Below are positions 6,573 to 51,432 of a DNA stretch of 64,000 bases, piece by piece. A program made the position numbers and the translations under genes. The stretch is taken from assembly GCA_025093985.1 (NCBI GenBank), contig JACAAK010000020.1, positions 1-64,000 on the forward strand. Direction: 5' to 3'. Position 1 is the stretch's first letter; each line of letters starts with the position of its first letter. Below the pieces are notes generated by a model. That model had not been told where the DNA came from and searched no databases. It saw nothing but the letters and a program-made list of their open reading frames with translations. Source of the stretch: Calvatia gigantea. Lineage: Eukaryota > Basidiomycota > Agaricomycetes > Agaricales > Lycoperdaceae.

Positions 6573-6879
6573 TGTTATGAGTTTCCACTGATCATAACAA
6601 GTTCCGTACCATTCTGCATTCCTATCTCCCCGCGTGCCTGTTTCAGCTATTCCAGTCCAGCGTTCCCCGAACTATGACTCATACCAACTACTACAACTTA
6701 ACTGGACGTTTCATGTAGTTACTCCATCTGTTCAACCAGATGACCTTAGCTGTATTTAAGCGTACTTACACCCTGCTGTATTCAGTACGCTTAACCACCT
6801 TCTGTTCTCTTTCCCTTACTCGCCCTCAAGACTTAGCCAGAGCTGCAACCTGAGGTCTAAACCGACTAAGGTCGTAACA
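6573..6879 (+). repeat. A1 5' LTR
   Basis: The repeat is 307 bp, bounded by TG and CA, and matches 11855-12161. It holds a TATA-like TATTTAAG at 6753-6760 and the predicted transcript start about 34 nt later. TAATC precedes it. Confidence 0.95.
6753..6797 (+). promoter_or_regulatory. A1 LTR core promoter and predicted self-primer
   Basis: TATTTAAG at 6753 is followed 34 nt later by ACGCTTAACCA (6787-6797). That 11-mer is complementary, with one C/T mismatch, to the sequence just inside the LTR (6882-6892). In A2 and the 14.4-kb fragment the same pair matches over all 11 nt. In Tf1-type elements the first 11 nt of the RNA prime reverse transcription, so this position fits both a start site and a primer. 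Inferred from sequence only. Confidence 0.6.
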
Positions 6880-6960: not shown

Positions 6961-8045
6961 ATGAGCTCGAACCCCGACGAATACAGAGAACCCCAGCTCG
7001 AAGTCACAGACAACGAGCTCGAAACAGACAGTGAAACCTGACTCATCGGACAAAGAAGCAGAGAACCCTGAAGTACCTGCACTAGAAACAGTTGTAATAG
7101 ACAACGAACCCGGAGACACCACACAAGGAGTAAACCCAACAGGAGTAGAAGCAATTATATCAGAACTCTTCAACGAACTCGACATAGCAGAAGAACAGTT
7201 AGGACAACCAGAGAACCAAGACACCAAGACAGAATCAGAATCAGGAGACTCAGAAATGTCAGACAACACTGCACCTACCACGACACCCAACACAAAGGGA
7301 CTTGTACCCGACCCAGGGTTCTTCGATGGAACCCGAACCAAATTCGACGACTGGTGGAGAGCCATGACACTCTTCATGAAATTCAACAAAGTCATCATGG
7401 CAGACAACAAAGCCATAGCAGTCTTAGCTAGATTAAGGGGAGGGACAGCAGGAGCATATGCAGCGATGAAAGCACCACAAATTCTGGAAGGAGAAGACTC
7501 CGTAGACTGGAAAGTCTTTGCCGAAGAATTCAAACAAACCTTTTCGGACGATGCCATGAACGCAAAGGCGGAATGGCAGATCGAAAAATTCAAACAGGGA
7601 AATAGGAACACAGCTGACTACCTCATCGAATTCGAAGTACTCAAAAACAAGGCGAAAACTGACAGCCGACACGCCATGTTCCTGCTGTGAAAAAACACCC
7701 AGCAAGATATTATCCACACCATCACAGGCTACCCTCCGGCCGCCCGACCTGACACGTACCCGGAATGGAAGGAGGCCATATTAGCAGTTGGACAAGGATA
7801 TGAGGCATCCGAATACCGAGGAGATAAGAAAACTAACTCGGGAACCACTTATAGAGGAATGGGAGAACCTATGGAAATAGGAAGCAGGCAACATGTGTTC
7901 AATGCAAAAGGGGAACCCAAATGCTATAACTGCGGAATATTCAGACACATGTCCAAGGACTGCAAAAAGCCCAAAGGATTAACATGCTACAACTGCGGCA
8001 AAATCGGACACATAGCCAAAGCATGCACCACACCAAAGAAAACCT
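6961..8045 (+). pseudogene. A1 gag with two CCHC zinc knuckles
   Basis: The start ATG matches the gag start of all A copies (MSSNPDEYRE). Order: acidic N-terminal third, gag core around 7310-7690 (GLVPDPGFFDGTRTKFDDWW, then LARLRGGTAGAYAA), and two CCHC knuckles at 7921-8030 (CYNC..H..C twice). One inserted T near 7039 shifts the frame, and TGA at about 7687 interrupts the core; the same TGA is present in A3. The frame after the second knuckle runs directly into the deletion that removed protease, with pol continuing in the -1 frame. Confidence 0.85.
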
Positions 8046-10841
8046 CGAGTCAGGACGAATACGACCGTCGAAGTCACCATATGCCGCACCCACCTTTTTC
8101 ATCCCAAAAAAGGATGGCTCAAAATGACTCATTCAAGACTACCGGCGGTTGAATAACATAGTCATTAAAGACAAAACACTGCTACCTCGAATCAGAGAAG
8201 TCATCGACAAATTAGGAAAAGCCAAATACTTCAACAAACTAGACATCATTTGGGGCTACAACAACGTCCGCATCAAAGAAGGGGACAAGTGGAAAGCAGC
8301 CTTTCTAACCAACAAAGGACTATTCGAACCCACAGTCATGTTCTTCGGTCTCAGCAATTCGCCAGGAACGTTCTCAAGAATGATGGCGAGCATCTTTCAA
8401 GACCTATTACGCAATGGAGATATAGTAAACTACATGGATGACTTCGCAATTCCAGGTGACACCAAGGAACAACTACGAGAACAAACAATCCGATTCCTAG
8501 AAAGAGCGGCCGAACACAACCTATGCTTTAAACGATCCAAATGCATTTTCGATGCCGAAGAAATCCCAATGCTAGGAGTAACAGTAGGACACGGACACAT
8601 CAAAATGGAGGCCGAGAAAGTAAAATCAGTACGGGAATGGCCCCAACTGCACAACAAAAAAGGGATAGAAAGATTCCTTGGTTTCGCCAACTACTACCGC
8701 TGATTTATAAAAAACTTCAGCAAGATAGTGGCCCCATTGAATAAACTAAAAGGATCAGAAGAATGGGAATGGGGAGAAGAACAACAATCGGCGTTCAACG
8801 AACTAAAACAACGAATCACAGAAGAACCCACCCTAACACTACCCCAAAGAGAAGGTCAATTCCGAGTAGAAGTCGATGCATCAAACTACGCATTAGGGTG
8901 GGTACTCTCACAGGAACAAAATTCGAAATGGCACCCAATTGCATTCACATCTCGCACACTATCACCGGCAGAACGAAATTACGAAATCTACGACAAAGAG
9001 CTGCTAGCAATCATGCACACATTAAAAGAATGGCGACACTACCTACTGGACGCAGAAGAGAAATTCGAAATCTGGACTGACCACGAGAACCTGAAATACT
9101 ATAGGGAACCCCAAAAACTAAACGGCCGACAAGCAAGATGGTACCTACGATTACAAGATTACAATTTCATATTGCGCCACATACCAGGAAAAACGAATAC
9201 AAAAGCGGACCTCCTCTCCAGAATCTACCAAGAACCAGACCAAGAAGAAGAAAAACTAGTCACCATGATCCGAGATGCCTGGTGGATGAGTAAAAATAAC
9301 AACGAACCATGGGAAGGGACCATCCTACTCCGTGCGGAGCTATTTATGGAACCAACCTTCAAAGAACGAATCAAGGCGAACAAAAGAAGAGAAATGGCCA
9401 TCACCAAAAAAATACGCAACCAAGACCCTGACATCACCGAACACGACGGAATAATCTACAAAAATACCAGCATGTATGTGCCACCCGAACCGGCACTCAG
9501 AGAGGAAATACTACACCAATACCACGATGCCCCCGACGCAGGGCACCCGGAACAACACCGAATGATCGAATTGGTAACCAGGGATTACTGGTGGCCAGCA
9601 ATCCAAACGGACAGCTCAAAAGTATATCAAGGGTTGCCAGAGTTGCCAACTGAAACAAGCCACGCAAGACACCTCTGAAGACACCTCTACACCCGCTTCC
9701 CATCCCCAACAGTCCATGGGAAGAAGTGAGTGTCGACCTCATTGGGCCACTGCCCGAATCAGAAGGAAAAGACGCCATCCTAGTCATTGTCGATCGATTC
9801 TCAAAAATGATACGACTCATAGTGACAAGAACAGATGTTTCCTCAAAAGAACTAGCATAGCACTACCGGGACGAAATATGGAAGCTACACGGAATGCTGA
9901 GGAAAGTCCTCAGTGACCGAGGACCACAATTTGCATCCGAATTCACCGGCGAAACTATTCAAAGGACTAGGGATAGAACGAAACCTGTCAACGGCCTACC
10001 ACCCACAAACCGACGGACAAACAGAAAGGATCAACAGAGAAGTCGAAACATACCTGAGGATATACTGCAACTACGACCAAAATGACTGGACAAAATGGCT
10101 ACCCATGGCTGAATTCCAATACAACGACAAGAAACACAGTGGAACACAGGCGACACCATTCTACCTAAACTACGGCAGACACCCCTGGAAAGGAAAGGAA
10201 AACGGAACGATGAACAACCCTAGCAGTACGGAGTTCCTAAAACAGCTCCAAAATGCAAGAAATAACGCCGCTTCCGCACTACGATCATATCAAGAAAAGA
10301 TGAAACAGACACATGATAACAGCAAAATGAACACGAGGACATACCAGATCAACGATGAAGTATGGTTAGAGAACACCAACATCCATACCAATCAGCCATC
10401 AAAGAAGCTAGGCCAAAAAAGGTATGGACCTTTCCAAATTAAGGAAAGAATAGGAGAAGCGGCATATCGGCTAGCGATACCAGAAGGATGGGCCATCCAC
10501 GATGTATTCAACGAACAGCTGTTAACCCCAGGCACAGAAAGCATCATTCCACATCCAGAAAGAAGCACCAGCGCCTGAACCAATGGTCATCAATAATGAA
10601 GAGGAGTATGAAGTAGAAGAAGTCCGAGGGAAATGACGAAAAGGAAGGGGATATCAATTCCTTATACACTGGAAAGGATACAGCAACGAAGAAGATACGT
10701 GGACAGTGGAGTCAAACTTGCAAAACACCTGAGATACAATAGTGGAGTACCACAAAAGGCATCCAGGAGAATACCTATAAAAAGGGGGGCAAGAAATCTA
10801 GAAAACCATCAGCCAAGTCAACCCCCAGACAGAAAAATTAG
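8046..10841 (+). pseudogene. A1 pol: truncated RT, RNase H, integrase, chromodomain
   Basis: Protease and about 60 N-terminal RT residues are deleted. RT keeps its core with YMDD near 8432 and ends about 8727. RNase H (8728-9230) keeps VEVDASNYALG and the YEIYDKELLAI motif. Integrase has the zinc domain (9480-9650), then VDLIG, LSDRGPQF and QTERINRE holding the D,D,E residues. A chromodomain (WKGYSNEEDTW) lies at about 10665-10770. Premature stops at about 8128 (TGA), 8701 (TGA) and 9858 (TAG) are all shared with A3. Indels in integrase and near 10767 break the frame. The stop TAG at 10839 is two codons before the next gene. Confidence 0.85.
10776..10785 (+). promoter_or_regulatory. Possible internal TATA box before ORF3 in A1
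   Basis: TATAAAAAGG lies 72 bp before the ORF3 ATG. The same TATAAAAAG is present in A2 and A3 at the same distance; A4 has CATAAAAAAG. It could drive a short transcript for ORF3, but it also encodes Tyr-Lys-Lys at the end of pol, so conservation may be for protein reasons. Confidence 0.3.
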
Positions 10842-10847
10842 CCAAAC

Positions 10848-11836
10848 ATGTCCTCCCAAGCCAACCACATCTCGATCAACTCCCTCATCCACCCCAACCC
10901 GACCACGATCTCCTCAGTCCCCCTCCCGAAGCCAGGCAATAGCCACGCACCCACACCCCAAGGTACCCATTATAACCTCGCAACCACCCCGTCCCCAGCA
11001 CAAGGACTCCTCGAGACACTCCTCAAAGATGTTAACAAAGCCACAAACGACGAAGTGGAAACAATCACGGCCCAAAACAAACAACTCGCAGTAAACCGCC
11101 ACATCACTCTCGCCACCGCCTGCATTACTTTCGCAGACATGTACGCTGGGTTTCGCCAACGCATCATCCTCCACAAGCCAGCATATCCCTGCCATCTTCC
11201 GCGCATTAGAATTATCCACCCTTACACCCAGTGAACGAAACAGGGTTCACAGTCTTCAGAGCTGTGTTGACCTCGCTCTAGAGGTATTCAACCACCTTGA
11301 TATCGCCGACATCTTCTTAGAACTCGGAGACGTTGCTATGAACTTACTAGGACGTGACAAAACCACAGAAGATCCAGACATTGATCAACTCGTTACATGC
11401 ATCGGAATCACTCTCACCGACCTACACACCACCATCCACTCCCCATCAACCAAACGAGCAGATACGCCCATAGACGAAGAAACCACTGTCTCAATGAAGG
11501 AGGAAGTCAATGCACTCTGACGGTTCATAAAGACCATCACCCCACCACAGATCGTATCGGTTTTTCTCCCACCAGCAAGATTCCGCAGTGTACTACCAGG
11601 CCAAGAAAAGGACCAACATTATTGGAAAATGATAGTCAAGAATTACTGGGACAACTCAACCACCACCTGAGTTCCTCTTCAATGGAGTCCCAGTCCCTAT
11701 CCATCAAGATGGCTGCAGCCACTTGCCCGTCTTCTTCGCATGCTCAAACGAAGGAAAGTACCTCATCGGAGCCACCAAGAAAGCCCTTGCCACGGCCGTA
11801 GTCAACGGAGAGTTTGACGAACTTCCTGAGGCATGA
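10848..11836 (+). pseudogene. A1 third gene (ORF3), function unknown
   Basis: ATG at 10848 lies in the same frame as pol, six bases after the pol TAG. The full-length product (see A3, A4) is about 330 residues: a Ser/Pro/Thr-rich head, a helical middle (QGLLETLLKDVNKATND..., ACITFADMYAGF), and a distinct C-terminal block (NYWDNSTTTEF, IGATKKAL) ending LPEA. There is no signal peptide or membrane segment, so it is not a typical env. In A1 an extra T near 11152 and another near 11670 shift the frame, and TGA lies at 11518. I recognise no domain family. Confidence 0.75.
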
Positions 11837-11854: not shown

Positions 11855-12161
11855 TGTTATGAGTTTCCACCGATCATAACGAGTTCCGTACCATTCTGCA
11901 TTCCTATCTCCCCGCGTGCCTGTTTTAGCTATTCTAGTCCAGCATTCCCCAAACTATGACTCATACCAACTACTACAACTTAACTGGACGTTTCATGTAG
12001 TTACTCCATCTGTTCAACCAGATGACCTTAGCCATATTTAAGCATACTTACACCCTGCTGTATTCAGTATGCTTAACTACCTTCTGTTCTCTTTCCCTTA
12101 CTCGCCCTCAAGACTTAGCCAGAGCTGCAACCTGAGGTCTAAACCGACTAAGGTCGTAACA
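11855..12161 (+). repeat. A1 3' LTR
   Basis: A 307-bp repeat of 6573-6879, preceded by a purine run (CGGAGGG) that could be the polypurine tract and followed by the TAATC duplication. Confidence 0.95.
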
Positions 12162-20167: not shown

Positions 20168-21158
20168 TCACATCTCAGAAAGCTTCATCAAAGTCACCAT
20201 TGGCTACTGTGAAAGCAAGGGCTTTCTTGGTGTCCCCAATGAGATATTTTCCATTGTTCGATTGCATGAAGAAGATGGGTAAGTAGCTTTGACTGTCTTG
20301 GTGGATAGGGACTGGGACACCATTGAATGGGAAGTCGGTTGTAGTAGAATTGTCCCAATAGCTCTTGACTATTGTCTTCCAATAGTGTTGGTCCTTTTCT
20401 TAGCCTGGTAACACAGTGTAGAACCTTACAGGTGGGAGAAAAACTGATACAAGTTGTGGTGGAGTGATGGTTTTTATAAAACAACAAAGGGAGTTGACTT
20501 CTTCTTTCATGGAGATGGTAGTCTCTTTGTTCATGGGTGTGTCGGCTCAGGTCAGTGGTGTGGGGTTGATTGTAGTGTGTAATTCTGAGAGGGTGCTGTG
20601 GATCCTGTTGACAAGGGCATCAATTTCTGGATCTTCAGTGGTTTTGTCATGCCTGAGGAGGTTCATGGCTATATTGGCAAGCTCTAGGAATATATCGGCG
20701 ATGTCGAGGTGTTTGAATACCTCAAGTCTGAGGTCAATGCGATAGTGAAGGCTGTGGACACAGTCTTGTTCACTGGGTGTGAGTGTAGACTGGTCTAGGG
20801 CTCAGAAGATGGCAGGGATGTGCTAATTGGTGGATGAAGACACATTGGTGAATCCAGCATACATGTCAGCAAAGGTGATGCATGCAGTGGCAAGGGTGAT
20901 GTGTTGGTTGACAACTAATCATTTGTTCTGGGCATTGATGGTTTCTATTTCACTGTTGGTGGCTTTGTTGACATCCTTTAACAGGGATTCAAGGAGTTCC
21001 TGTGCTGGGGATAGTGTGGTGGTGAGGTTATAGCGAGTGCCTTGGGGTACAGGTGCTTGGTTGCTGCCTGGTTCTGGGAGTGGGACAGAGGAGATTGTGG
21101 TTGGGTTGGGGTGGATGAGGGAGCAGATGGTGACACAGTTGGCAGAGGAGAAAGGCAT
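20168..21158 (-). pseudogene. A2 ORF3, function unknown
   Basis: ATG at 21158 is two codons (CCA GAC) after the pol TAA and in its frame. The Ser/Pro/Thr head, helical middle and YWDNSTTT / IGDTKKAL end are recognisable. The codon that is TGA in A1, A3 and A4 is TGT here, so the full protein was not always interrupted there. Several other stops (for example near 20918 and 20820) and an extra G near the end mark decay. Confidence 0.75.
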
Positions 21159-21164
21159 GTCTGG

Positions 21165-24100
21165 TTAATTTCTTTGGTTGGGTGATGTTTTTTTGGTTTT
21201 TCTGCCCCTCTTTTTATAGGTATCCTCTGGATGCCTCTTTTGGTAATCTGCTATTGCATCTTGAGCATTTGTTAGGTTTGACTCTACTGTCCATGTATCA
21301 TCCTCATTGTCATACCCCTTCCAGTGTACTAGGAATTGATAACCCCATTCTCATTTTCATCGTCCTTGGATCTCCTCTACTTCGTATTCCTCTTCATTGT
21401 TGATAATCACTGGTTCGGGTGCTGGTAGCTTCTGTTGTCTTGGGAATGCTGCTTTCTGTACTAGGGTTAACAGCTGCTCATTGAACACATCATGGATGGC
21501 CCATCCTTCTAGTAGTGCGAGCTGGTATGCTGCTTCTCCTATCTTTTCCTTGATTTGGAAAGGCCCATACCATTTCTGGCCTAGCTTCTTTGATGGCTGA
21601 TTGGTATGGATATTTGCATTCTCTAACCACACTTCATCTCTGATTTGGTATTGCATTATGTGCAGCTTGCTAGTTGTCGTGGGTCTGTTTCATCTTTTCC
21701 TGATAAGATCGTAGTGCTGCCGTGGAGTTCTCTCTTGCGTTCCATAGTTGTTTCAGGAATTCGGTACTACTGGGGTTGTTTGTTACTCTGTGGTCTTTCC
21801 CTTTTCAGGGGTGCTGTCCATAATTGAGATAGAACAGTGTTTCCTGTATTCCACTGTATTTCTTGTCATTGTACTGGAATTTGGCCATGGGTAGCCAATT
21901 TACCCAGTTGTCTTGCTTGTAGTTGCAGTATAGATGAAGGTACATTTTGACCTCTCAGTTGATTCATTCTGTTTGCCCATCTGTTTGTGGATGGTAGGCT
22001 ATTGATAGAGTTCATTCTATTCCCAATCCTTTGAACAGTTCTCTGGTGAATTCTGATGTGAACTGTGGTCCTTGGTCACTGAGGACTTTCTGTGGTACTC
22101 CATGTAGCTTCCATATTTCGTTCCTGTAGAGCTGTGTGATTCCTTTTGATGATACGTCTGTATTTGTTGGCATGAGTCATATTATTTTTGTGAAATGATC
22201 GACAACTACCAGGATCACATCCCTCCCTTCTGATTCTGGCAGTGGTCCAATGAGGTTGATGCTTATCTCTTCCCATGGCCCATTTGGTATTGGGAGTGGG
22301 TGTAGTGGTGTTTTCAATGGCGTGATGCAAGGTTTGTTCCTTTGACAATTCTGATATCCTTTGATGTATTTTCTGGTGTTGTTTCATATGGATGGCCACC
22401 AATAGTTCCTTGTGATCAGTTTGATCATTCTATGTTGTCCTGGGTGTCCTGCATCTGGTACATCATGGTATTGTGGTAGGATTTCTTCATGAAGTGTGGG
22501 GTCTGGTGGCACATATATGCTGCTTCCTCTATAGATAACTCCATTATGTTCCATAATGTCGGATTCTTTGTTTAGAAGCTTCATGGTGACAATCATGTCT
22601 TTTTGGTGATTTGCTTTTATCCAGTCCATGAATGTCAGTGTGATGAATAATTCTGTGCGGAGTAGGATGGTTTCTTTGGATTTCTCTCTGTCTTCTGGTT
22701 TGTTTTGTAGCCAACTTTCTCAGATCATGGTGATTACTCCATCATTTTCCTTGTCTGGTTCTTGGTGAATTCAGGACAGTAAATCTGCCTTTGTGTTTGT
22801 CTTGCCTGGCACATGTCATGGTGTGAAGTCATAGTCCTGTAGTCTTAGGTACCATCTTGCTTGTCGTCCATTAAGCTTCTGGGGCTCTCTATAGTACTTG
22901 AGATTCTTGTGGTCAGTCCAGATTTCGAACTTCTCTTCTGTGTCTAGTAGATAATGTCGCCATTCTTTCAAAGTGTGAATAATGGCCAGTAGTTCTTTGT
23001 CATAGATCTTGTAGTTTTGTTCTGCTGGGAAGAGTGTCTATAACATGAATGCAATTGGATGCCATTTCTTGTCTTGTTCTTGTGACAGGACTCCTCCTAG
23101 TGTGTAGTTCGAGGCATCAACTTCTACTCGAGATTGTCCCTTTCATTGTGGCAATGTGAGGGTGGGTTCTTCTGTGATTTTTTGTTTTAGTTTGTTGAAG
23201 GCTGACTGGTATTCTTCTTCCCATTTCCATTCAACAGCCCCTTTGAGCTGGTTGAGTGGGGTCGCAATTTTACTAAAGTTTTTGATGAACTGGCAGTAGT
23301 AGTTTGTGAAACCTAGGAAGCATTCCACTCCCTTTTTGTTTTTTGGTTCTGGCCAGTCTCATATGGCCTTGACTTTCTCTTCTTCCATTTCAATGTGTCC
23401 ATGTCCTATCTTTACTCCTAATATGGGAATTTCTTCAGTGTCGAATATGCACTTTGTCCGTTTAAAGCAGAGGTTGTACTTGGCTGCCCATAATAGGAAT
23501 CGTACTGTTCTTTCTTTTAGTTGTTCCTTTGTGTCTCCTGGGATTGCAAAATCATCCATATAGTTTACAATGTCTCCATTTTGCAGTAGGTCTTGAAAGA
23601 TGCTGGTCATCATCCTAGAGAATGTTCCGGGTGAGTTGCTTAGTCCAAAGTACATTATGGTGGGCTCGAACAGTCCTTCATTGGTCAAAAATGCTGCCTT
23701 CCATTTGTTCCCTTCCTTGATTCACACATTGTTGTACCCCCAAATGATGTTGAGCTTGTTGAAGTATTTTGCCTTTCCCAATTTGTCAATGACTTCTCCA
23801 ATCCTGGGCAGTGGTGTTTTGTCTTTTACCACTACATTGTTTAGTTGTCTATAATCCTGGATTAATTGCTTCGATCCATCCTTTTTTGGTATGAAGAAGG
23901 TGGAGGCTGCATATGGAGATTTTGACAGTTGTATACATCCTAATTCAAGGTTTTCTTTAATGAAGGCCTTGAGTTTGTCTTGTTCCTTGATTGTCATATT
24001 GTATGTTCCAGCACTTATTTCTTTGGGAGCATCTTCGGTCAGGATTATCTTGTGGTCCCATTCTGTTCATTGTGGCAGCTTATCAAAGGTGGTTTTGTTA

Positions 24101-26204: not shown

Positions 26205-27327
26205 AGCAGCTCCTGTTAAAGGACATCCACACTGGAAACTGCACAGGTGAACAAGAGGAGGCAGTTGCCAAAGCCACATGGGAACTCAAGTAGTCATTGA
26301 CCAAGACTATGAGGGGTGCAGAATGGGCAGAGCAGGATAGTCTACTCCTGTTCTGAGGAAAGATCTACATCCCAACAGGCTCTGATCTTAGGTAGAGGAT
26401 AATGGCTCTCCACCATGACATGAAGATTGCAGGACATGCTGGGCAATGGAAAATGCTAGAACTCATCTCCCACAACTACTGGTGGCCCCAGATGGCTCAA
26501 TACATTGGTCAGTACATCTCTACCTATGACCTTTGCATATGCACCAAGCCCATCTGCTGGCTACCACAAGGAGAACTCCATCTGCTCCCTATCCCTGAAG
26601 CCTGCTGGGATATGCTCAGTGTAGATTTTGTGGTTGAACTTCCAGAATCCACAGGCTATGATGCTGTCATGACAGTAGTGGACTCTGTCTCTAAATGAGC
26701 CCACTTGATCCAACCCACACCACTATCTCAGCTGAAGGCACAGCATAGCTCTTCCTCCACAATGTCTGGAAACTCCATGGACTCCCCAACACTGTTGTTT
26801 TGGACTGTGGACCACAGTTCATTGCTATACCCATAAAAGAGCTTTACTAACTCTTAGAAATCAAGATGGCTGCCTCAACTGCCTGGCATTCACAGGCTGA
26901 TGGGCAGACAGAGTAGGTGAACCAGGAACTTGATCAGTACCTCTGCCTCTTCGTAAACAAGTGACAGAACAACTGGTACAACCTTTTCCCACTCATGGAA
27001 TTCCAACACAACAACTATGTCCACACTTCCACCCAACACTCCCCCTTCCTCTTAGACACTGGACATCACCTGTGGATGGGATTTGTTGAGCTGTGTCAGC
27101 CACCCTTGAGGATCAAATCAGTTAACAAGTTTACAAAGCAAATGGAGTTGATGCTGGAAGAAGTGAAATCTACACTGGTCAAGGTGAAAGATGACATGAC
27201 CTGCTACTATAACCAATGACATACACCTGCACTGGTATACAAGCCAGGTAACAAAGTTTACCTCAAAGCAGATGACATCCAGACCACCTGCCCATTGAGG
27301 AAGCTTTCTCACCAATGCTTAGGACCA
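26205..27327 (+). pseudogene. Element F integrase, first part
   Basis: The zinc-binding domain (HHDMKIAGHAG, then CICTKPIC) is at about 26410-26560. The core follows with VDFVVELPES, a degenerate DCGPQF and QTE region near 26910. The C-terminal part reaches the Helitron at 27327. Stops such as TGA at 26696 and TAG at 26908 are C-to-T type changes. It is closely similar to H integrase. Confidence 0.8.
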
Positions 27328-27808
27328 TCTATATAGAGGGGAATGATAGGGTGTCTGGGGGCTTCTGGGGGGCTATAAGAGGGGGACAATGGTGTAGGCT
27401 GACAAGTTTTAGTCAGCATTTGTCAGAATTGGTAATCCTGTGCTGCTGCTGACTAAGATTAGTCAGAACTGACTAAGCAAAAGTTGTTCCCTTCTTACAT
27501 TCTTCACATCAAAACATTCTTCACATCTCACTTTTCGCATCAAAAACACTGCCACCACATCAAATACTGCCACCTCGGTGCTTTGGGAGACCAATACCCA
27601 AAATTCAACACTCCACATGCTGTAAAAATTATAAAACATCTCCAGAATGACAGAGAATGACTCAGACTACAGTCTATATATAATTTCCTTAGTCAGACAA
27701 CAGTCCATACTGAAAAAATGAGTCAATGGCTGTTTCTATGACTTACTACTCTGATCACTAATTACTAAGGCAGTGAATCTGCCTTATTAATCTTCACTGC
27801 CTAAATGG

Positions 27809-27923: not shown

Positions 27924-30900
27924 ATGTGAGTTATCTATGACTTGAAGTATTCTTTCTCTTATTAACTTATTACTTAGGGATCCACCACCACCACCACCAC
28001 CATCTCCACCCACTACCCCTAAAAGGACCTGTCAGGAAGTCAGAGCAGAAGAACGTCTGCAACATCTTCAAATGACTGATCCAGATGATTGTCGTGACAG
28101 AGCTATCTCAGCTGTCCCTGCACCAATACTTCATGATGCTAGATTAGCAGCTATGATTCCACAAACCATGATTCCTGAGGACTTGGATTGTCCCCGGATC
28201 AACAGACTACCTTTAGGTCTTCCACAAATCCCATAACCTGTAGTATCAGGAAGTACAGTACCACTACCACAAGTTCCTTTGGGTATTGTACAACCTACTG
28301 CAGGTCCATCTAATACAGCAAGGCCAATTACTGGATTTAACCCTCCACCAGTTCTAAACCCTCCATCAGTCCTAAACCCTCTACTAGTCTTAAACATACC
28401 CCAGACGATTATTCCAGCAGATTTGGATAGGCCTCTGCCAAATCCTATTGCTCATTTGAGGAACATGTTGCAAAATATTCCACCTGTCCCAATTACAGGG
28501 AGAGGTAGAGGCAGGGGTGCAGTATTGACTAATGCAGATGATATAATTCAAGAAGCTAGAATGGCAGAGCTAGAACAGAATCTTAGAGCTGACAGAGAGA
28601 GGTTGTTGGCTGAGCAAAGACAACAACAAGAGCAGGAAAGGAGGGAAATGGTTTTAAGGCTGGCACAAGAACAGAGAATAAGAGAAGAGGAAAGAGAGGC
28701 TAGGAATAGAGAGGAACAGTAAAGGAGAATTATAGAAGAAGAGGAAAGAGAGGCTAGGAATAGAGAGGAACAGCAAAGGAGAATTATAGAAGAAGAGGAG
28801 AGATTGGTTAGAGAAAGGGAGGATCAGGCTAGAAGAATTAGGGATGAAGAACACAGATTGGCCCAGCAGATAGAAATCAGAACCCAATGAGCTATACAGC
28901 TACAAATGGAACTAAGAGAGAATGAGGATAGAGCTTCTGGGGAAAATAGGGAACAAGAGTTGCAGAGGCTATTACAACAGTGGAGGGAAGAACATCAAGC
29001 TGAAATGGAAGAGGATGAAGATGACAATTTCTTTGACCAAGATGATGACCTTGATGAACTGGAGCTGGCAGCTTTAGCCATGCTTCAACAAGCTCAAGCC
29101 CAAGCCCCTGCTATACCACCACACCTAGGAAATGCTTTGGATATGGGTGATATTGGAAATATAGAGGACCATGATCCAAATAATAAACCACCACCACCAC
29201 CTCCTCCAAGAAGACAAAATATTCCAAAAGCATGTTGCCCTTATTCAGAGCCTCCAGAAATCCACAACTTGGGTCCAATGAATGTGGAATGTCCTAATTG
29301 TAGAGCTCTTCACTTTATGTCTGAAAAGCTCACAAATTCTTCAAGAATCAACCCCAAATTTGGAACATGTTGTCTTCAAGGCCAGATTGCTCTACCACCC
29401 TACCATTCCATGCCACATGAACTGGAAAATCTTTTATGTGGTGTTAGCCCTCACTCAGAAGCCTTCAAGTCAAATATCAGGTGCTATAATGCTGCTCTTG
29501 CATTTACATCACTGGGGGCCAAGATTGACCAATCTGTCACAAGATCATCAGGTCCATACTGCTTCAAAATCAGTGGAGAACTCTGTCACCTCTCAGGAGC
29601 CTTACTTCCTACTGAAGGCCAACCACCTGTCTATGCCCCAACTTGATCTCAGAATGCAAAACAACCAAGCTTTCTGTGCATATCAGCAGGCATTTCAAAT
29701 CATGAATGCCAAACCTCAGCATGAACACCATTCAGTTTATGCCAGGCTCAGGGTATTGGCAGGAAATGACCAAAGAGTATACAATGCTCCAACAGTTGAT
29801 GAAATATCTGTCATTGTTCCTGAAACTGGAGATGTAGATGTTTCAGAACACAGAGATATTATCCTGTGCCTTCAAACTGGTTGGTTACAAAGAATCAGCA
29901 ACTTATCCCACTCATATTCCCCACTCCATTATGTGTTGCTGTTTCCCTATGGTGACTCTGGTTGGCATACCAATCTACCAGCACAGCCAGGAGTTGGCAA
30001 CAATCCAAGGTCCAAAAAGGTTACCCAAAGATGTTATTATGCCTACCACTTTCACATCAGACCTGGACCTCAGCCACCACTATTTTGGGCTGGCAAATTG
30101 TTCTAGCAGTTTTTGGTTGATGCTTGGGCCTCTATTGAGCAGAGTAACCTCCACTGGTATAGGACTCATCAAAAGGAGATTAGAGCTGAAGTTTACCAGG
30201 GCCTTCAGGATGCAGCTGTTGGAGATAGAGATGAAAACCTCAACTTGGCAAATTATGGTCAAAGAGTTATCCTACCTTCCTCTCATGTTGGGAGTGAACA
30301 CTACATGAACCAACTTTTCCAGGATTCTATGGCTATCTGTAGGACATTTGGGAAACCAGACATCTTCTTGACAATGACTGCCAACCCCAATTGGCCTGAA
30401 GTACAGGAGGCATTATTGGTCAACAGGAATGATGGCAGGACCAAACAGGCATCTACAGATTGTGCTGAAATTGTGGCTAGAGTTTTCCAGGAGAAGAAGA
30501 AAGCACTACTCAAAGAAGTCAAGGATGGTCTGTTCAGTACAGCTGTGGCAATGGTACACACCATAGAGTTCCAGAAAAGAGGATTACCTCACATGCACCT
30601 CTTGATTTGGGTTGAAAACCTAGACAAAATCAGAGATAGCCTGCATGTTGACTCTATGGTGTCTGCAAAAATCCCAGATCAACCTTACCTGCATAGAGTG
30701 GTTACATCCATGATGCTCCATGGTCCATGTGGTCCTGATCATCCCAATGCCAAGTGTATGGTGAATGGAAAATGTAGCAAAGGATTTCCCAAAGAATTCA
30801 GGCCTACAACACTATATGGAGAAGATGGATATCCCAAATATGCCAGACCTGATGATGGATGCACTTTTGTCAAGAATGGCTTCACCTATGACAACAGGAG

Positions 30901-33368
30901 AGTTGTGGCTTACAATGCTTATCTCAGCTCAAAGTATGGATGTCACATCAATGTTGAAATTTGTGCATCTATTGAGTCTGTGAAGTATGTCCACAAATAC
31001 CTCTACAAGGGCCATGACAGGACAACCCTGGAAATATCTGCAGGTCCAGAGCAACAGAGAGATGAAATTAAAGAGCATGTTGACTCTCGCTATGTGTCTC
31101 CTGTTGAAGCTAGTATGGCATACTTTTGAATATTCTATGCATGAAGAGTCTCCAACAGTTTAGAGGCTGCCTATACACTTGGAGAACCAACACTTGGTAT
31201 ATTTCAATCCAGAGGATAATCATGCTCAGGTCTTGGGCAGACCCAACATTGACAGGACACCACTTACAGCCTGGTTTGAGGCCAATAGACAACATCCTGA
31301 AGCTCACCACATCCTATACCAGGACTTTCTTAAACCTTGGGTTTATGTGAAGAAGAACAAAGAGTGGAAGGTCAGGCAAAGAGGCTATGCAATTGGGAGG
31401 ATGTACTTTGTATCTCCAGCTGCAGGGGAAAGGTTCTACCTTAGGATGCTTTTAACTGTGGTCCCAGGTGCTACCTCATTTCAAGATATCAGGACATTTG
31501 AGGGCACTGTTTATGACACCTACAAGGCAGCCTGTCTTGCCAGAGAACTCTTGGAGGATGATAGGGAGTGGGCCCAATGTCTGAATGAAGCTGGAGATAT
31601 GCAAACAGGGAGTTCACTTTGCCAGTTGTTTGTAGTAATCCTTCAAAACTGCCATCCAGCTGCACCTGAAGTTCTCTGGAATGATTTTAGGGCCAAGATT
31701 TGTGATGACTTGAGGCATAGGCTAGGAAGGATCCCCCAGTACAGAAATAGGGAGTTCACAGAAGAGCAAATCTATGACTATGGTTTGCATCTGTTGAATA
31801 GAATTCTTGTGAATTCTGGCAAAACTCTCGGGGATTATCCACCAATGCCACTGTCTCAGGGACCAGGAGAAGAAGAGAATTGGGAGGATATTGCACAGAA
31901 CTTCATGCTGGCAGAAGAGCTTGCCTATGATCCAATAGCATTGGCAGATATGGTTGAGAGAAATACTCAATCATTCAATGTTGAACAAAGATCAGTGTAT
32001 AATGCTGCCCTTGATTCAGTCAACAACAACTTGGGCAAAATGATCTTTATTCACAGTGCAGGTGGAGGTGGTAAAACCTTTGTCTGTAACACTCTTGCTG
32101 CTGCTGTGAGGTCAAGAGGTGATGTAGCACTTTGTGTTGCCTCCTCAGGTATCGCTGCACTACTGCTTGAAGGTGGAAGAACTGCACATTCAAGATTCAA
32201 GATACCAATTCCTGCAGATGAAACATCAGTAGCATCTATCAAGTGCAATCCTCAGATGCATAGAGTCCTGGAGAAAACCAAAATGATTATCTGGGATGAA
32301 GTACCCATGCAACACAGACATAGCATCAAATCTGTGGACGGGAGTCTCAGGGACTTGCTTGAAAATGACAGATTCTTTGGTGGAATTACAGTTGTATTTG
32401 GAGGTGACTTTTGCCAAATACTTCCTGTGGTTCCAAGAGGGTCGAGACAGGAGATTATTGCAGCATCCCTGTGTAGGAGTGAGCTCTGGAGAGCCACAGA
32501 AGTGCACTACTTAGTGCAGAACATGAGGTTGGATAGGACACCAGAAAGTGATCACCATGCTGCATGGTTACTGGAAATTGGGGCAGGAACAAACTTGAAT
32601 GCTAAAGAAATGGTTGAAATCCCTCCAGAAATGTGCTGTGCAGATATGGATGGTCTTATTGGGTCAATTTATCCTGATATTGGACAAGGCAACAAAGAAG
32701 ATCAATATTTCTTGGACAGGACAATACTTTCTTCCAGAAATGATGAAGTGGATGACATCAATGAAAGTATTCTTGGGAAGTTTCCAGGGAACCCACATAT
32801 TCTTATGGGTGCTGACTCTATAGAGCTGGCAGACCAAGTGATGAATGGATATCAGCCTTATCTACCAGAGTACCTGAACTCTCTTAGGGCAAGTGGGTTG
32901 CCTCTGGCCAAGTTGGTGTTGAAGATTGGTTGTCCAGTAATGTTGCTGAGGAACTTGGACCCATCAAAGGGACTATGTAATGGAACAAGAATGGTGGTGA
33001 CAGATATCAAGAGGAGGGTACTGGAGTGTAGGATTATTTCTGGGGACAGGAGATATGCAGGAAGTACAGTGCTGATTCCAAGGATCATACTACAGCCATC
33101 AGCTGAAACACTGCCAATCCCATTGAAGCACAGACAATTCCCAGTTTGACTTGGATTTGCAATGACGATCAACAAGTCTCAAGGGCAGTCAGTGAAACAT
33201 GTTGGGATTAATTTGCAGACTTCAGTGTTTTCACATGGGCAGTTGTATGTGGGATTATCTCAGTGTACTTCAGGAGAAAGGATCAAGGTGGTGTTACCTG
33301 AGCAAAATGAACACACAAAGACTATGAATGTAGTATACAAAGAAGTACTTGGTGGACTTAGACTGTAA
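27924..33368 (+). pseudogene. Helitron Rep/helicase, broken by stops and frameshifts
   Basis: A GT-AG intron (27926-27977) appears to split the start codon: AT ends exon 1 and G begins exon 2, giving Met-Asp then seven Pro. Then come a Pro-rich head, a Glu/Arg/Gln-rich coiled coil (28550-29100), the Helitron zinc-finger-like block CCPYS/CPNC (29230-29380), the HUH motif LPHMHLL near 30590, and YVHKYLYKG near 30990 with the catalytic Tyr. The PIF1-type helicase has Walker A AGGGGKT (32058), WDEVPM, GGDFCQILP and TINKSQGQS (33165). Breaks: TAA 28234, TAA 28720, TGA 28888, a frameshift near 29643, TAG 30104, a frameshift near 31110, TAG near 31163, TGA 33147. Most stops fit CAA/CAG/CGA changes. 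Confidence 0.9.
27926..27977 (+). other. Probable 52-bp intron splitting the Helitron start codon
   Basis: GTGAGT donor and TTACTTAG acceptor, with CTTATTAAC-like branch sequence near the 3' end. Splicing joins AT to G and opens the long frame; without it no ATG leads into the first coding stretch. Confidence 0.5.
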
Positions 33369-36087: not shown

Positions 36088-36426
36088 TATTAGGGCAACC
36101 CCTGATGGCCCCTCTGGACTATCCCACAACCCCATGCCCTCACCTGCTCTCAGCCACACAGATATGAACAACAACTGGAGATCCCAAAGGACAATGATGG
36201 ACTTACATATATAATGAAACAATAAGGACAATGGACAGTAAAGTAGTATATATTAACCTGTACATCTGCAGGGGACCCTTATCCAATTCTCTAAGGATTT
36301 CTCTGCAGGTATGTAATCTATACACATATTTGTAACATAACTAAGGATTCCCCCACAGTTACCTGCTTGCCCACCTCATGAGAGCCTCATGTCTCTGAGC
36401 TGCTCAGACTGTGGGTTGCCCTTACA
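36088..36426 (+). repeat. Element F 3' LTR
   Basis: A 339-bp unit similar to the H 5' LTR at 54899-55245. The start has decayed from TGTCAGGGC to TATTAGGGC. The end CTTACA matches. The next bases, CATTC, would be the target duplication if F inserted in J. Confidence 0.8.
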
Positions 36427-37754
36427 CATTCCAGACAAATTGCAGATTATTTGAGCCACTCATCATGTTCTTTGGCCTTACTAATAGTTCTGCCACCTTC
36501 CAAACCATGATGAATGATATCTTCTGTGAGCTCATCATGGAGGGCATTGTGGTAGTATACATGGATGACATCCTGATCTTTACTAAGACAATTGAAGAGC
36601 ACTGAGAGGTCACCCGCTGGGTCTTACAAATTCTTGAACAGTACCAGCTTTTCCTTAAACCTGAAAAGTGTAGTTTAAGAAGACCTGGGTCAAGTACCTC
36701 AGTCTCATCATATTGGAGAATAGTGTTGAGATAGACCCAGTCAAAGTTGCAGGAGTTCAAGACTGGCCTACTCTGGCTGATGTAGGGGAAGTCCAGGTAT
36801 TCCTTGGGTTTGTCAACTTCTACTACTGCTTCATCCATGACTTCTCCCACATAGCCTGCCCCCTCTTTGACCTCACTAAGGCAGATACCAAATGGAAATG
36901 GGGCCCTGCAGAGAAAGTGGCTTTCTAGGCACTTAAGGACACAGTCACCTCCTCCTCTATTCTCCTCTCATCCAATAACACTGCTCCCTTCCATGTCAAA
37001 GCAGACAGCTCAGACTTCACTATAGGTGCAGTTCTCTCTCAGAAAGTGGTGAACTTGGACCAATGGCACCTGGTGGCATTCTACTCAAAATCCCTCTCAG
37101 TGGTCAAATGGAATTACAAGATTCATGACAAGGAAATACTGGCAATTATCTATGTACAAGAGGAATGGAGATACTTCCTCAAAGGCACATATCACCAAAT
37201 TGAGATTTGGACAGACCACAAGAATCTAAAGTACTTCATGTCTACTAAGAAACTCAACTGTTGCCAAGCCTACTGGTCTCTTATACTCTCTCACTTCAAT
37301 TTCTACTTATACCACTGTTCCAGCCAAACTATGGGCAAACCTGACATACTGTCCTGTAGAGCTGACCATGGTACAGGAGCCTATGACAACAAGAATATTA
37401 CCCTACTTCCTGATGGCCTCTTTGCCATCTGTACACTCAAAGGAATTTTAATGGAAGAAGAGAAGCAGCTTCTGTTGAAGGACATCCACACTGGAAACCA
37501 CACAGGTGAACAAGAGGAGGCAGTCACTAAAGCCACACAGGAACTCAAGCAGTCATCAACCAAGACTGTGAGGAGTACAGAATGGGCAGAGCAGGATGGT
37601 TTACTCCTGTTCTGAGGAAAGATCTATATTCCAACAGGCTCTGATCTTAGGTGGAGGATAGTGGCTCTCCACCATAACACAAAGATTGCAGGACATGCTG
37701 GATGATGGAAAATGCTAGAACTCATCTCTCATAACTACTGGTGGCCCCAGATGC
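36427..37754 (+). pseudogene. Element J pol fragment: RT core, RNase H, start of integrase
   Basis: RT begins mid-domain at QTNCRLFEP and keeps YMDDILIF near 36560 and the FLGFVNFYYCFI block. RNase H (36900-37250) has the YKIHDKEILAI and WTDHKNLKYFM motifs. It reaches the integrase zinc domain and ends at 37754, where K begins. It is close in sequence to H. Frameshifts lie near 36680 and stops at 36604 and 36927. J is a separate copy from F because both carry the same integrase region (26205-26480 against 37480-37754). Confidence 0.75.
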
Positions 37755-38652
37755 CCTGAACCAAACCTGAAAAATCTCTACACTAGATATTAAAGCCATG
37801 ATCAGAGAACTTCCAACTAATGAACAAATGGAATTCAGGGAAGCCTACATTACTGACCCAATGCTCAAACCCTTTGGGGATTTTTGAAGGTGTCACCTGA
37901 TCTTGAAAAAGAATCACTGGGTGACCCACAAATTAACCTGATCAAACTCCCCATTTCAAACAACAAAGCATTGATCTTCCTTCTTATTGAATTGAACCAG
38001 AACCACCTATGAAATATCACAGTCACCACATTAATTGACTCAGGAGCCCAAGGAAACTTCATCTCCTCTACATTCACTAACACTCATGGACTACGAACCC
38101 ATACCATTAACCAACCTATCAAAGTATCCAATGCAGATGGAACCCCCAATGAAAATGGATCAATCTACAAAAGTATTGAGCTAAATACTTTAATCAATGG
38201 AAAACAATGTCATTTTGAAGCCTATATCTCAGGAATAGGATTGAAAGATCTAATCCTCAGATATCCCTGGCTACAACAGACAAATCTGGACATAAACTGG
38301 ACTACCCAAGAATTCAAATGGCAAAACAATGACCACATTGTGCCTCTCATTACAAAATCCACAAATGGACCCACTACTATCAATGAAATTGCCTTAGACA
38401 TCCATGGAATGAATGACACTGAACAATACACCTACCTAGACAAAGACTTTGACCTGTTAGCTGTAAAAGTCTTCGAAGCAATCATTTACTCTGATGAACC
38501 AGAACTCTCAATCAATGAACTGAAGCTCTACTTGGAAAACATTGATTTTGACAAATTTCATTTGGAACATGAACTCTATGGAATCACCCAAACCCTACAT
38601 GAACTCAAAATCAATACAAAGATTACTCAAGCTACAAGTTTAGTGCAGAAAT
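37755..38652 (+). pseudogene. Element K protease and linker to RT
   Basis: The protease active site LIDSGAQGNFIS is near 38035, followed by VSNADGTPNENG and then GLKDLILRYPWLQQTNLDINW (flap to C-terminal region). From 38241 it is open for 141 codons up to A3. Earlier stops near 37887 and 38010 interrupt the region before protease. Confidence 0.8.
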
Positions 38653-38977: not shown

Positions 38978-39964
38978 TCATGCCTCAGGAAGTTCATCAA
39001 ACTCTCCGTTGACTACGGCCGCGGCAAGGGCTTTCTTGGTGGCTCCGATGAGGTACTTTCCTTCGTTTGAGTGTGCGAAGAAGATGGGCAAGTGGCTGTG
39101 GCCATCTTGACGGATAGGGACTGGGACTCCGTTGAAGAGGAACTCGGTGGTGGTTGAGTTGTCCCAGTAATTCTTGACTATCATTTTCCAATAATGTTGG
39201 TCCTTTTCTTGGCCTGGTAGTACACTGCGGAATCTTGCTGGTGGGAGAAAAACCGATATGATCTGTGGTAGGGTGATGGTCTTTATGAACCGTCAGAGTG
39301 CATTGACTTCCTCCTTCATTGAGACAGTGGTTTCTTCGTCTATGGGCATATCTGCTCGTTTGGTTGGTGGGGAGTGGATGGTGGTGTGTAGGTCGGTGAG
39401 AGTGATTCCGATGCATGTAACGAGTTGATCAATGTCTGGATCTTCTGTGGTTTTGTCACGTCCTAGTAAGTTCATAGCAACGTCTCCGAGTTCTAAGAAG
39501 ATGTCGGCGATATCAAGGTGGTTGAATACCTCTAGAGCGAGGTCAACACAGCTCTGAAGACTGTGAACCCTGTTTCGTTCACTGGGTGTAAGGGTGGATA
39601 ATTCTAATGCGCGGAAGATGGCAGGGATATGCTGGCTTGTGGAGGATGATGCGTTGGCGAACCCAGCGTACATGTCTGCGAAAGTAATGCAGGCGGTGGC
39701 GAGAGTGATGTGGCGGTTTACTGCGAGTTGTTTGTTTTGGGCCGTGATTGTTTCCACTTCGTCGTTTGTGGCTTTGTTAACATCTTTGAGGAGTGTCTCG
39801 AGGAGTCCTTGTGCTGGGGACGGGGTGGTTGCGAGGTTATAATGGGTACCTTGGGGTGTGGGTGCGTGGCTATTGCCTGGCTTCGGGAGGGGGACTGAGG
39901 AGATCGTGGTCGGGTTGGGGTGGATGAGGGAGTTGATCGAGATGTGGTTGGCTTGGGAGGACAT
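38978..39964 (-). CDS. A3 ORF3, best-preserved copy of the third gene
   Basis: ATG at 39964 follows TAG CCA AAC in the pol frame. The frame holds 328 codons before TGA at 38978-38980, with one internal TGA after residue 223 (39293). Domains in order: Ser/Pro/Thr head (1-50), helical region rich in Leu/Asn/Thr (55-225), then a 100-residue C-terminal block with KNYWDNSTTTEF and IGATKKALAAAV. No signal peptide, membrane segment or known motif. Whether the internal TGA is a real end or decay is unclear; A2 has TGT there. Confidence 0.7.
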
Positions 39965-39970
39965 GTTTGG

Positions 39971-42769
39971 CTAATTTTTCTGTCTGGGGGTTGACTTGGC
40001 TGATGGTTTTCTAGATTTCTTGCCCCCCTTTTTATAGGTATTCTCTGGATGCCTTTTGTGGTACTCCACTATTGTATCTCAGGTGTTTTGCAAGTTTGAC
40101 TCCACTGTCCACGTATCTTCTTCGTTGCTGTATCCTTTCCAGTGTATAAGGAATTGATATCCCCTTCCTTTTCGTCATTTCCCTCGGACTTCTTCTACTT
40201 CATACTCCTCTTCATTATTGATGACCATTGGTTCAGGCGCTGGTGCTTCTTTCTGGATGTGGAATGATGCTTTCTGTGCTGGGGTTAACAGCTGTTCGTT
40301 GAATACATCGTGGATGGCCCATCCTTCTGGTATCGCTAGCCGATATGCCGCTTCTCCTATTCTTTCCTTAATTTGGAAAGGTCCATACCTTTTTTGGCCT
40401 AGCTTCTTTGATGGCTGATTGGTATGGATGTTGGTGTTCTCTAACCATACTTCATCGTTGATCTGGTATGTCCTCGTGTTCATTTTGCTGTTATCATGTG
40501 TCTGTTTCATCTTTTCTTGATATGATCATAGTGCGGAAGCGGCGTTATTTCTTGCATTTTGGAGCTGTTTTAGGAACTCCGTACTGCTAGGGTTGTTCGT
40601 CGTTCCGTTTTCCTTTCCTTTCCAGGGGTGTCTGCCGTAGTTTAGGTAGAATGGTGTCGCCTGTGTTCCACTGTGTTTCTTGTCGTTGTATTGGAATTCA
40701 GCCATGGGTAGCCATTTTGTCCAGTCATTTTGGTCGTAGTTGCAGTATATCCTCAGGTATGTTTCGACTTCTCTGTTGATCCTTTCTGTTTGTCCGTCGG
40801 TTTGTGGGTGGTAGGCCGTTGACAGGTTTCGTTCTATCCCTAGTCCTTTGAATAGTTTGCCGGTGAATTCGGATGCAAATTGTGGTCCTCGGTCACTGAG
40901 GACTTTCCTCAGCATTCCGTGTAGCTTCCATATTTCGTCCCGGTAGTGCTATGCTAGTTCTTTTGAGGAAACATCTGTTCTTGTCACTATGAGTCGTATC
41001 ATTTTTGAGAATCGATCGACAATGACTAGGATGGCGTCTTTTCCTTCTGATTCGGGCAGTGGCCCAATGAGGTCGACACTCACTTCTTCCCATGGACTGT
41101 TGGGGATGGGAAGCGGGTGTAGAGGTGTCTTCAGAGGTGTCTTGCGTGGCTTGTTTCATTGGCAACTCTGGCAACCCTTGATATACTTTTGAGTGTCCGT
41201 TTGGATTGCTGGCCACCAGTAATCCCTGGTTACCAATTCGATCATTCGGTGTTGTTCCAGGGTGCCCTGCGTCGGGGGCATCGTGGTATTGGTGTAGTAT
41301 TTCCTCTCTGAGTGCCGGTTCGGGTGGCACATACATGCTGGTATTTTTGTAGATTATTCCGTCGTGTTCAGTGATGTCAGGGTCTTGGTTGCGTATTTTT
41401 TTGGTGATGGCCATTTCTCTTCTTTTGTTCGCCTTGATTCGTTCTTTGAAGGTTGGTTCCATAAATAGCTCCGCGCGGAGTAGGATGGTCCCTTCCCATG
41501 GTTTGTTGTTATTTTTACTCATCCACCAGGCATCTCGGATCATGGTGACTAGTTTTTCTTCTTCTTGGTCTGGTTCTTGGTAGATTCTGGAGAGGAGGTC
41601 CGCTTTTGTATTCGTTTTTCCTGGTATGTGGCGCAATATGAAATTGTAATCTTGTAATCGTAGGTACCATCTTGCTTGTCGGCCGTTTAGTTTTTGGGGT
41701 TCCCTATAGTATTTCAGGTTCTCGTGGTCAGTCCAGATTTCGAATTTCTCTTCTGCGTCCAGTAGGTAGTGTCGCCATTCTTTTAATGTGTGCATGATTG
41801 CTAGCAGCTCTTTGTCGTAGATTTCGTAATTTCATTCTGCCGGTGATAGTGTGCGAGATGTGAATGCAATTGGGTGCCATTTCGAATTTTGTTCCTGTGA
41901 GAGTACCCACCCTAATGCGTAGTTTGATGCATCGACTTCTACTCGGAATTGACCTTCTCTTTGGGGTAGTGTTAGGGTGGGTTCTTCTGTGATTCGTTGT
42001 TTTAGTTCGTTGAACGCCGATTGTTGTTCTTCTCCCCATTCCCATTCTTCTGATCCTTTTAGTTTATTCAATGGGGCCACTATCTTGCTGAAGTTTTTTA
42101 TAAATCAGCGGTAGTAGTTGGCGAAACCAAGGAATCTTTCTATCCCTTTTTTGTTGTGCAGTTGGGGCCATTCCCGTACTGATTTTACTTTCTCGGCCTC
42201 CATTTTGATGTGTCCGTGTCCTACTGTTACTCCTAGCATTGGGATTTCTTCGGCATCGAAAATGCATTTGGATCGTTTAAAGCATAGGTTGTGTTCGGCC
42301 GCTCTTTCTAGGAATTCGGATTGTTTGTTCTCGTAGTTGTTCCTTGGTGTCGCCTGGAATTGTGAAGTCATCCATGTAGTTTACTATATCTCCATTGCTG
42401 TAATAGGTCTTGAAAGATGCTCGCCATCATTCTTGAGAACGTTCCTGGCGAATTGCTGAGACCGAAGAACATGACTGTGGGTTCGAATAGTCCTTTGTTG
42501 GTTAGAAAGGCTGCTTTCCACTTGTCCCCTTCTTTGATGCGGACGTTGTTGTAGCCCCAAATGATGTCTAGTTTGTTGAAGTATTTGGCTTTTCCTAATT
42601 TGTCGATGACTTCTCCGATTCGAGGTAGCGGTGTTTTGTCTTTAATGACTACGTTATTCAACCGCCGGTAGTCTTGAATGAGTCATTTTGAGCCATCCTT
42701 TTTTGGGATGAAAAAGGTGGGTGCGGCATATGGTGACTTCGACGGTCGTATTCGTCCTGACTCGAGGTT
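39971..42769 (-). pseudogene. A3 pol: truncated RT, RNase H, integrase, chromodomain
   Basis: The domain set is the same as A1. YMDDF is near 42375. RNase H and integrase are open for 300 codons (41795-40893) and the rest of the integrase core for 129 codons. Shared stops with A1 at the matching TGA near 42690, TGA near 42105 and TAG near 40953. The basic C-terminal tail is in frame and stops with TAG at 39971-39973. Confidence 0.85.
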
Positions 42770-45347: not shown

Positions 45348-45665
45348 TGTTGTGGATTCTATCATTCCTATCACATCATCATGCCACTTTCCATCTCTAT
45401 CTCCACCATGTACCTGTTTCAGCTATTCTAGTATCAGTGATCTCTGAGCACTGACTTATACTGACTCACATACTACCATGCTATAGTAATCAGACATTTC
45501 ATGTAGTATCTCCATCTATTCAACTGGATGATCCTCCTCATATTTAAGCATACATACACCTCCTGTATTCAGTACATTTAACCATCTACAGTTCTCTTCC
45601 CTTACTCACCCTCAAGTCTTAGCCTGAGTTGCAACCTGAGGTTCAGTTAGACTAAGGTCATAATA
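45348..45665 (+). repeat. A4 5' LTR
   Basis: A 318-bp unit starting TGTTGTGG; its end has decayed to ATAATA. A TATTTAAG box and a decayed primer sequence are present. Confidence 0.9.
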
Positions 45666-50412: not shown

Positions 50413-50418
50413 ACAAAC

Positions 50419-51414: not shown

Positions 51415-51432
51415 AGCTTAATCAGGGGGTAA

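Follow-up and report, generated by a model that had tools for sequence, protein, structure and literature searches.

Fungal chromoviruses have mostly been described with gag and pol only, at least in the portion consulted of a 2010 survey of fungal Gypsy elements (PMC2864245). The elements of that survey are mostly chromoviruses, and the legend to its Figure 3 includes further ORFs to which no function is assigned, so the mere presence of a third ORF is not new (PMC2864245). The extra ORF listed there is a possible counterpart of the gene described here, ORF3, and the parts of the survey consulted contain no analysis of selection or of the junction with pol, unlike the present work (PMC2864245). 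Among plant elements, some members of Athila4/Calypso and Sirevirus carry a third ORF after pol, as is the case here, along with one or more extra polypurine tracts between pol and the 3' LTR (PMC2829016, consulted in part). The plant ORF is env-like, whereas ORF3 has no membrane segment, and the tract found here lies inside the end of pol. For SIRE1, the third ORF (env) reportedly follows the pol stop directly and is made by stop suppression; in the elements described here, the frame of the third ORF differs among lineages. LTR elements of bdelloid rotifers also carry a non-env third ORF downstream of pol, as here, but their enzymatic ORF3s are GDSL esterases and DEDDy exonucleases (PMC5408684, consulted in part), whereas the present ORF3 matches no known domain.

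Termination-coupled restart of translation is described for victoriviruses and hypoviruses of fungi, for caliciviruses, and for SART1; victoriviruses likewise do without UGGGA, and, in the portion consulted, the review in question names non-LTR, not LTR, retrotransposons (PMC5972666). In these systems, the stop codon and the restart AUG are close together, as they are here, although the present junctions have neither UGGGA nor a supported structure. To our knowledge, coupling of pol to a third gene by a stop-start arrangement is known for no LTR element, and a frame-free form of such coupling was not met in a limited literature search that covered its sources in part. It is possible, though less likely than not, that ORF3 is an undescribed fungal retrotransposon gene with strong selection over a deep radiation, frame-independent stop-start coupling to the pol stop, and an adjoining internal polypurine tract.

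Element anatomy and the copies in the window

The window is the whole stretch of 64,000 nucleotides analyzed (contig 13 of the 46-Mb, 77-contig assembly that was searched for further copies). The assembly has 34 matches to hydrophobins, a family with hits in 0 of 14 control genomes, which identifies the host as a fungus. By domain content and order, the ORF3-bearing elements are chromodomain Ty3/gypsy (chromovirus) LTR retrotransposons. In genomic copy L070, gag has a Retrotrans_gag domain and two CCHC knuckles (zf-CCHC) and overlaps pol, which is in a different frame and has gag-asp_proteas/RVP_2, RVT_1, RT_RNaseH, Integrase_H2C2, and rve domains (all Pfam) plus an SH3 (Tf2-1-like) domain. 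The chromodomain (Pfam Chromo) is C-terminal to the integrase, in a piece that comes after one stop codon. Downstream of the chromodomain, pol ends in a basic tail and its stop, which are followed by a short spacer, the 328-codon ORF3, ~18 bases ending in the tract GGGGGGTAT or a decayed form of it, and an LTR that starts with TGTT. ORF3 occupies the whole interval from pol to the 3' LTR, and a purine-rich tract is present at the 3' LTR, as expected of a chromovirus.

Four copies of this family (the A family, copies A1 to A4) lie in the window. As the sequence-only reading had it, each has a pol stop, six bases, and an in-frame ATG opening an ORF3 of ~330 codons, all read directly from the sequence. 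Their features are as follows, in window coordinates.

6573-6872, plus strand: A1 5' LTR, 300-nt repeat core, 96% to the 3' copy
10643-10828, plus strand: A1 chromodomain and basic pol tail, found by tblastn with the L070 segment, which matches Pfam Chromo
10756-10791, plus strand: A1 conserved tract, ending ATACCTATAAAAAGGGGGGCA, with G runs; position read from the sequence, conservation taken from other copies
10839-10847, plus strand: A1 junction, pol stop TAG (10839-10841), spacer CCAAAC, ORF3 ATG at 10848 in the pol frame
10848-11836, plus strand: A1 ORF3, broken; two stops counted over three tblastn pieces, with two frame breaks between the pieces
11855-12154, plus strand: A1 3' LTR (repeat core), starting TGTTATG directly after the terminal tract
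20175-21158, minus strand: A2 ORF3, five stops; end approximate
21159-21167, minus strand: A2 junction, pol stop TAA (21167-21165), spacer CCAGAC, ORF3 ATG at 21158 in the pol frame
38978-39964, minus strand: A3 ORF3, one TGA at codon 224
39965-39973, minus strand: A3 junction, pol stop TAG (39973-39971), spacer CCAAAC, ORF3 ATG at 39964 in the pol frame
50341-50375, plus strand: A4 conserved tract, ending GGATACCCATAAAAAAGGGGGCAG; position read from the sequence
50410-50418, plus strand: A4 junction, pol stop TAA (50410-50412), spacer ACAAAC, ORF3 ATG at 50419 in the pol frame
50419-51415, plus strand: A4 ORF3, one TGA at codon 227
51430-51678, plus strand: A4 3' LTR (repeat core); 5' partner at 45345-45593, 92%

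ORF3 is broken in all four window copies. These had been taken as mutually diverged, but A1 and A3 are near-identical and have the same internal gag-pol deletion, so the four are not independent. In A1 (window 7040-8330) and A3 (42314-43245), the end of gag, the protease, and the start of the reverse transcriptase are missing and pol picks up again at about residue 260, as though the two copies went back to a deletion derivative that was duplicated or copied in trans. The claim that nearly all CpG had been lost is borne out by A2 and A4 (observed/expected ratios of 0.17 and 0.06) but not by A1 and A3 (both 0.80). Likewise, the single stop reported for the A4 ORF3 against many in gag and pol is correct as a count (1 in 329 ORF3 codons versus 26 in ~1,579 gag and pol codons). 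A2 has no such deficit (5 in 322 versus 24 in ~1,578), and the low A4 count is partly due to composition, since CGA codons, which decay to TGA, are fewer in intact ORF3 than in pol (1.5 versus 3.1 per 100).

The window also holds remains of other Ty3/gypsy families, with ~30-45% identity to A-family pol (26270-27384, 36426-38345, 44266-45359, 51748-53418, and 56801-59821), Helitron remains at 30107-33149 (a Helitron_like_N domain followed by a PIF1 helicase), and an open Tc1/mariner-like transposase frame at 61494-62528 on the minus strand (HTH_Tnp_Tc3_2 and DDE_3).

Junctions and selection across the genome

Two ORF3 N-terminal queries were searched against the same genome, and scoring of 150 of 770 and 150 of 755 candidates gave a copy number of at least 150. 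An uninterrupted 328-codon ORF3 was found in 20 of 29 copies (L010-L038). For a census of 136 junctions, we excluded L051, L062, and L063 (whose start is absent or ambiguous), L009 and L039 (the same as A3 and A4, respectively), L071 (at the place of L060), and L069 and L070 (at the places of L011 and L012); the apparent local duplications L044/L045 and L024/L025 were each counted twice.

The pol-ORF3 spacing is 6 nt in 107 of the 136 junctions, 2 nt in 12, and 7 nt in 7. Four of the remaining 10 are without a recognized pol tail, and the other six comprise spacings of 10 nt (two copies), 26 nt (one), and 5 nt (one), a double stop, and one junction without a stop; the 10-nt and 26-nt spacings look like frame breaks in pol. 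Six-base spacing "in every copy" accordingly describes the window copies and not the genome. Spacing and frame, whose free variation had been named as grounds for refutation, do vary among other copies, but mostly within 2-7 nt: a stop lies within that distance of the ORF3 AUG in 127/136 junctions, and the 2-nt and 7-nt spacings put ORF3 out of the pol frame. A further stop, 15 nt upstream of the AUG, is present in 5/107 six-nt copies, at two sites (L033 and L131; L101, L114, and L120), possibly through common descent.

The pol stop may be TAG, TAA, or TGA, the hexamer after it varies, and the length of the pol tail differs among copies by whole codons. The tail is poorly conserved (amino acid identity, ~0.3-0.4), and this fast-changing segment, were it free, would be expected to gather ~0.9 nonsense changes in each pair of subfamilies; no whole subfamily has lost the tail. 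ORF3 starts with ATG in 129 of 134 placed copies and with ATA in 5 (two copies were unplaced), and all placed starts have a purine at -3 (90 A, 44 G). When 42 ORF3s were placed on a tree, those 2-nt copies for which sequence sufficed (7/12) formed one clade with a support of 0.95, and two 7-nt copies group with a 6-nt copy (support, 0.88), so the 7-nt spacing arose, or reverted, more than once.

Selection was gauged first from polymorphisms in 22 A-type copies, scored against chance for the same kinds of change with CpG separated. Left out of this set were L011, L020, L022, L023, L024, L031, and L037 (ORF3 cut, or a pol part that was truncated, replaced, or otherwise odd) and L009 (a window copy). 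For ORF3, nonsynonymous and synonymous counts were 61 and 66 for singletons (omega, 0.46), 38 and 46 for changes in two to three copies (0.45), and 15 and 59 for changes in four or more copies (0.14). The corresponding values for the last 497 codons of pol were 98 and 86 (0.56), 55 and 83 (0.34), and 40 and 94 (0.20). At greater depth, codons 1-220 of ORF3 have dN/dS values of 0.10-0.18 between subfamilies, with dS above 1, like pol, and of 0.10-0.19 within five groups of copies, and the C-terminal 108 codons are looser (0.13-0.37); related pairs were pooled in these averages and dS loses precision at saturation, but all group pairs point the same way. Seven deeply diverged 2-nt copies (21 pairs; mean pS, 0.54; mean pN, 0.14) give a mean ORF3 omega of 0.17, and the 7-nt pair L078/L081 gives 0.20. 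The check for a dN/dS near 1 in ORF3, which had been named as grounds for abandoning the gene, thus returned purifying selection instead, and its likeness to that on pol marks ORF3 as a working gene.

The ORF3 protein and the tract upstream of its gene

In an intact copy, the ORF3 protein is 36 kDa with a pI of 6.1 and has no transmembrane segment (highest 19-residue hydropathy, 1.28). The view that it is not a plain env holds, there being neither a membrane segment nor a match to an envelope family in Pfam, PHROGs, or NCBIfam. A single ORF3 sequence had no match at an E value of 0.01 among 5.8 billion proteins, and a 17-row ORF3 alignment retrieved one entry from the same set, the 122-residue ENA fragment P0003, which belongs to the same family and has an internal deletion. 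The best E values were 0.039 against Pfam (in 2 of 17 members, to unrelated families), 0.16 against PHROGs, and 0.12 for the ORF3 profile against PDB sequences; NCBIfam and IMG/VR gave no match. WAVE1, retrieved from PDB sequences by a single ORF3 (E value, 0.009), was set aside because it was absent from the profile search, and the idea of a second gag was dropped for want of similarity to gag. No match was accepted in any library searched, profile search included, in keeping with the proposal of ORF3 as a candidate for something not yet described; a limited literature search recognized no paper on the gene. In P0003, the first ~86 ORF3 residues are joined to ~residue 190 onwards, and by eye the break falls between two ATCACTCTC repeats, which points to a deletion rather than an intron.

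A structure model of ORF3, with low to moderate confidence overall (pLDDT, 59), has a low-confidence stretch at residues 1-48, helices at 50-230, and a small mixed C-terminal part, and structure comparison returned only non-specific helical matches. Going by the model, the N terminus of ORF3 is probably disordered, with helices through the middle of the protein and a small part at the C-terminal end. We infer that its product is a soluble, possibly oligomerizing, non-envelope accessory protein of the transposition cycle.

Synonymous divergence was scanned in 12-codon windows over ~800 codons (mean, 0.70; standard deviation, 0.21). The lowest values, 0.16-0.24, fall roughly -108 to -60 nt from the ORF3 AUG, with further lows across the pol-ORF3 junction and near -468 (KKLGQ..GPF). 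The last of these, ~468-447 nt before the ORF3 ATG in the integrase GPY/F region, is very low, and A-rich codon bias may explain it. Codon use in the tract nearest ORF3 departs from that elsewhere in pol: GAG encodes Glu in 40/41 cases (versus 267/1,232), GGA encodes Gly in 0/73 (versus 466/789), and CAT encodes His in 66/70 (versus 207/548). With at most one mismatch allowed, the tract core GGATACCYATAAAARRGGGGGCA has 457 genomic matches, versus 0 for the reversed pattern. Between the tract and ORF3, 88 of 101 leaders have no AUG; nine of the 13 that do have it at one spot, where it likely stems from CG decay (CACG to CATG). A candidate upstream hairpin in the tract (GGCAUCC/GGAUACC) was not supported, its covariation being no higher than that of shuffles. 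In L031 and L037 (ORF3 start at 1501 after orienting), likeness to L070 begins only 26 nt and ~87 nt, respectively, before an intact ORF3, near the conserved tract.

The internal ATAAAARRGGGGG[CT]A and the terminal GGGGGGTAT, which is followed directly by TGTT, have a G run plus YA in common; other purine runs exist, and the internal run of A2 is interrupted. As a first guess, the conserved tract inside the end of pol is a candidate internal polypurine tract, because it resembles the terminal tract and because an extra polypurine tract is reported for Athila4 and Calypso. As a second guess, it may be a TATA-like promoter element.

Translation of ORF3

Our preferred reading, held with about as much confidence as doubt, is that a long-lived chromodomain Ty3/gypsy family carries ORF3 as a functional third gene and that translation of ORF3 begins at the AUG of this gene, with termination-coupled restart as the most likely route. 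Ribosomes ending on pol a few nucleotides upstream would restart at the ORF3 AUG, and ORF3 would then act as a non-envelope accessory factor of transposition. Restart needs closeness, not frame, and so could operate across the observed spacings; in its favor, the identity of the pol stop changes, yet its position beside the AUG is mostly kept. The UGGGA motif (TURBS, caliciviral type) occurs within 80 nt upstream in only 1/131 copies. Compared with mononucleotide shuffles, junctions of 89 nt fold somewhat better (mean z, -1.7 for 26 chosen junctions), with weak consensus pairing. Against restart, closeness is not absolute, given the five extra-stop copies; a spacer this short would be expected to gather few indels anyway; and the pol tail may have been retained through selection acting on that tail. 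Moreover, pol, being out of frame with gag, is presumably made at a low level, so restart after pol would yield very little ORF3 protein. For this reason, restart is favored only narrowly over a separate ORF3 mRNA.

Such an mRNA, transcribed from an internal promoter, is a possible but rather unlikely source of ORF3. The CCYATAAAARRGGGGG tract is TATA-like and lies ~65-75 nt upstream of a start preceded by a short A/C-rich leader with few AUGs, and the depressed synonymous divergence of the tract, its abnormal Glu and Gly codon use, its one-sided genomic matches, and the mostly AUG-free leaders all count toward a promoter. As precedents, the accessory gene of the plant element Grande is said to have a promoter of its own. 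Promoter activity has also been described in the gag-pol junction of Candida Tca2 (PMC2194720, consulted in part). The conserved tract fits a promoter as well as it fits restart, but it fits a polypurine tract too, and a promoter does not account for the distance of 2-7 nt that mostly separates the pol stop and the AUG. Translation of ORF3 from a spliced subgenomic RNA is improbable: splicing is typical for ORF3s of LTR retrotransposons (PMC5408684, consulted in part), but by eye the alignments have no acceptor AG whose position immediately upstream of ORF3 is constant.

In-frame readthrough of the pol stop, which the sequence-only reading had put forward beside termination-coupled restart, is not the general route to ORF3. 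A SIRE1-like Pol-ORF3 fusion would suit the 6-nt copies, in which ORF3 is in the pol frame, but ORF3 lies in another frame in the 2-nt and 7-nt copies, and selection on it persists in the 2-nt clade, which removes readthrough as a general mechanism. All three stop codons are used, the hexamer after the stop is variable, and the AUG with its purine at -3 is kept, which a fusion would not need; we consider this explanation very improbable. That ORF3 is a neutral passenger or a chance open frame deserves almost no credence, since it is refuted by purifying selection, comparable to that on pol, in all groups tested, even though no homologue outside the family was found in the libraries searched.

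With termination-coupled restart as the preferred reading, the 2-, 6-, and 7-nt junctions of the genome serve as a natural experiment on the route by which eukaryotic ribosomes arrive at a third cistron, and the ideas of an internal polypurine tract and of a promoter can be tested directly on the conserved tract. Selection on the third gene like that on pol means that the known enzymes are not all that the element needs, and that the additional requirement is not an envelope.
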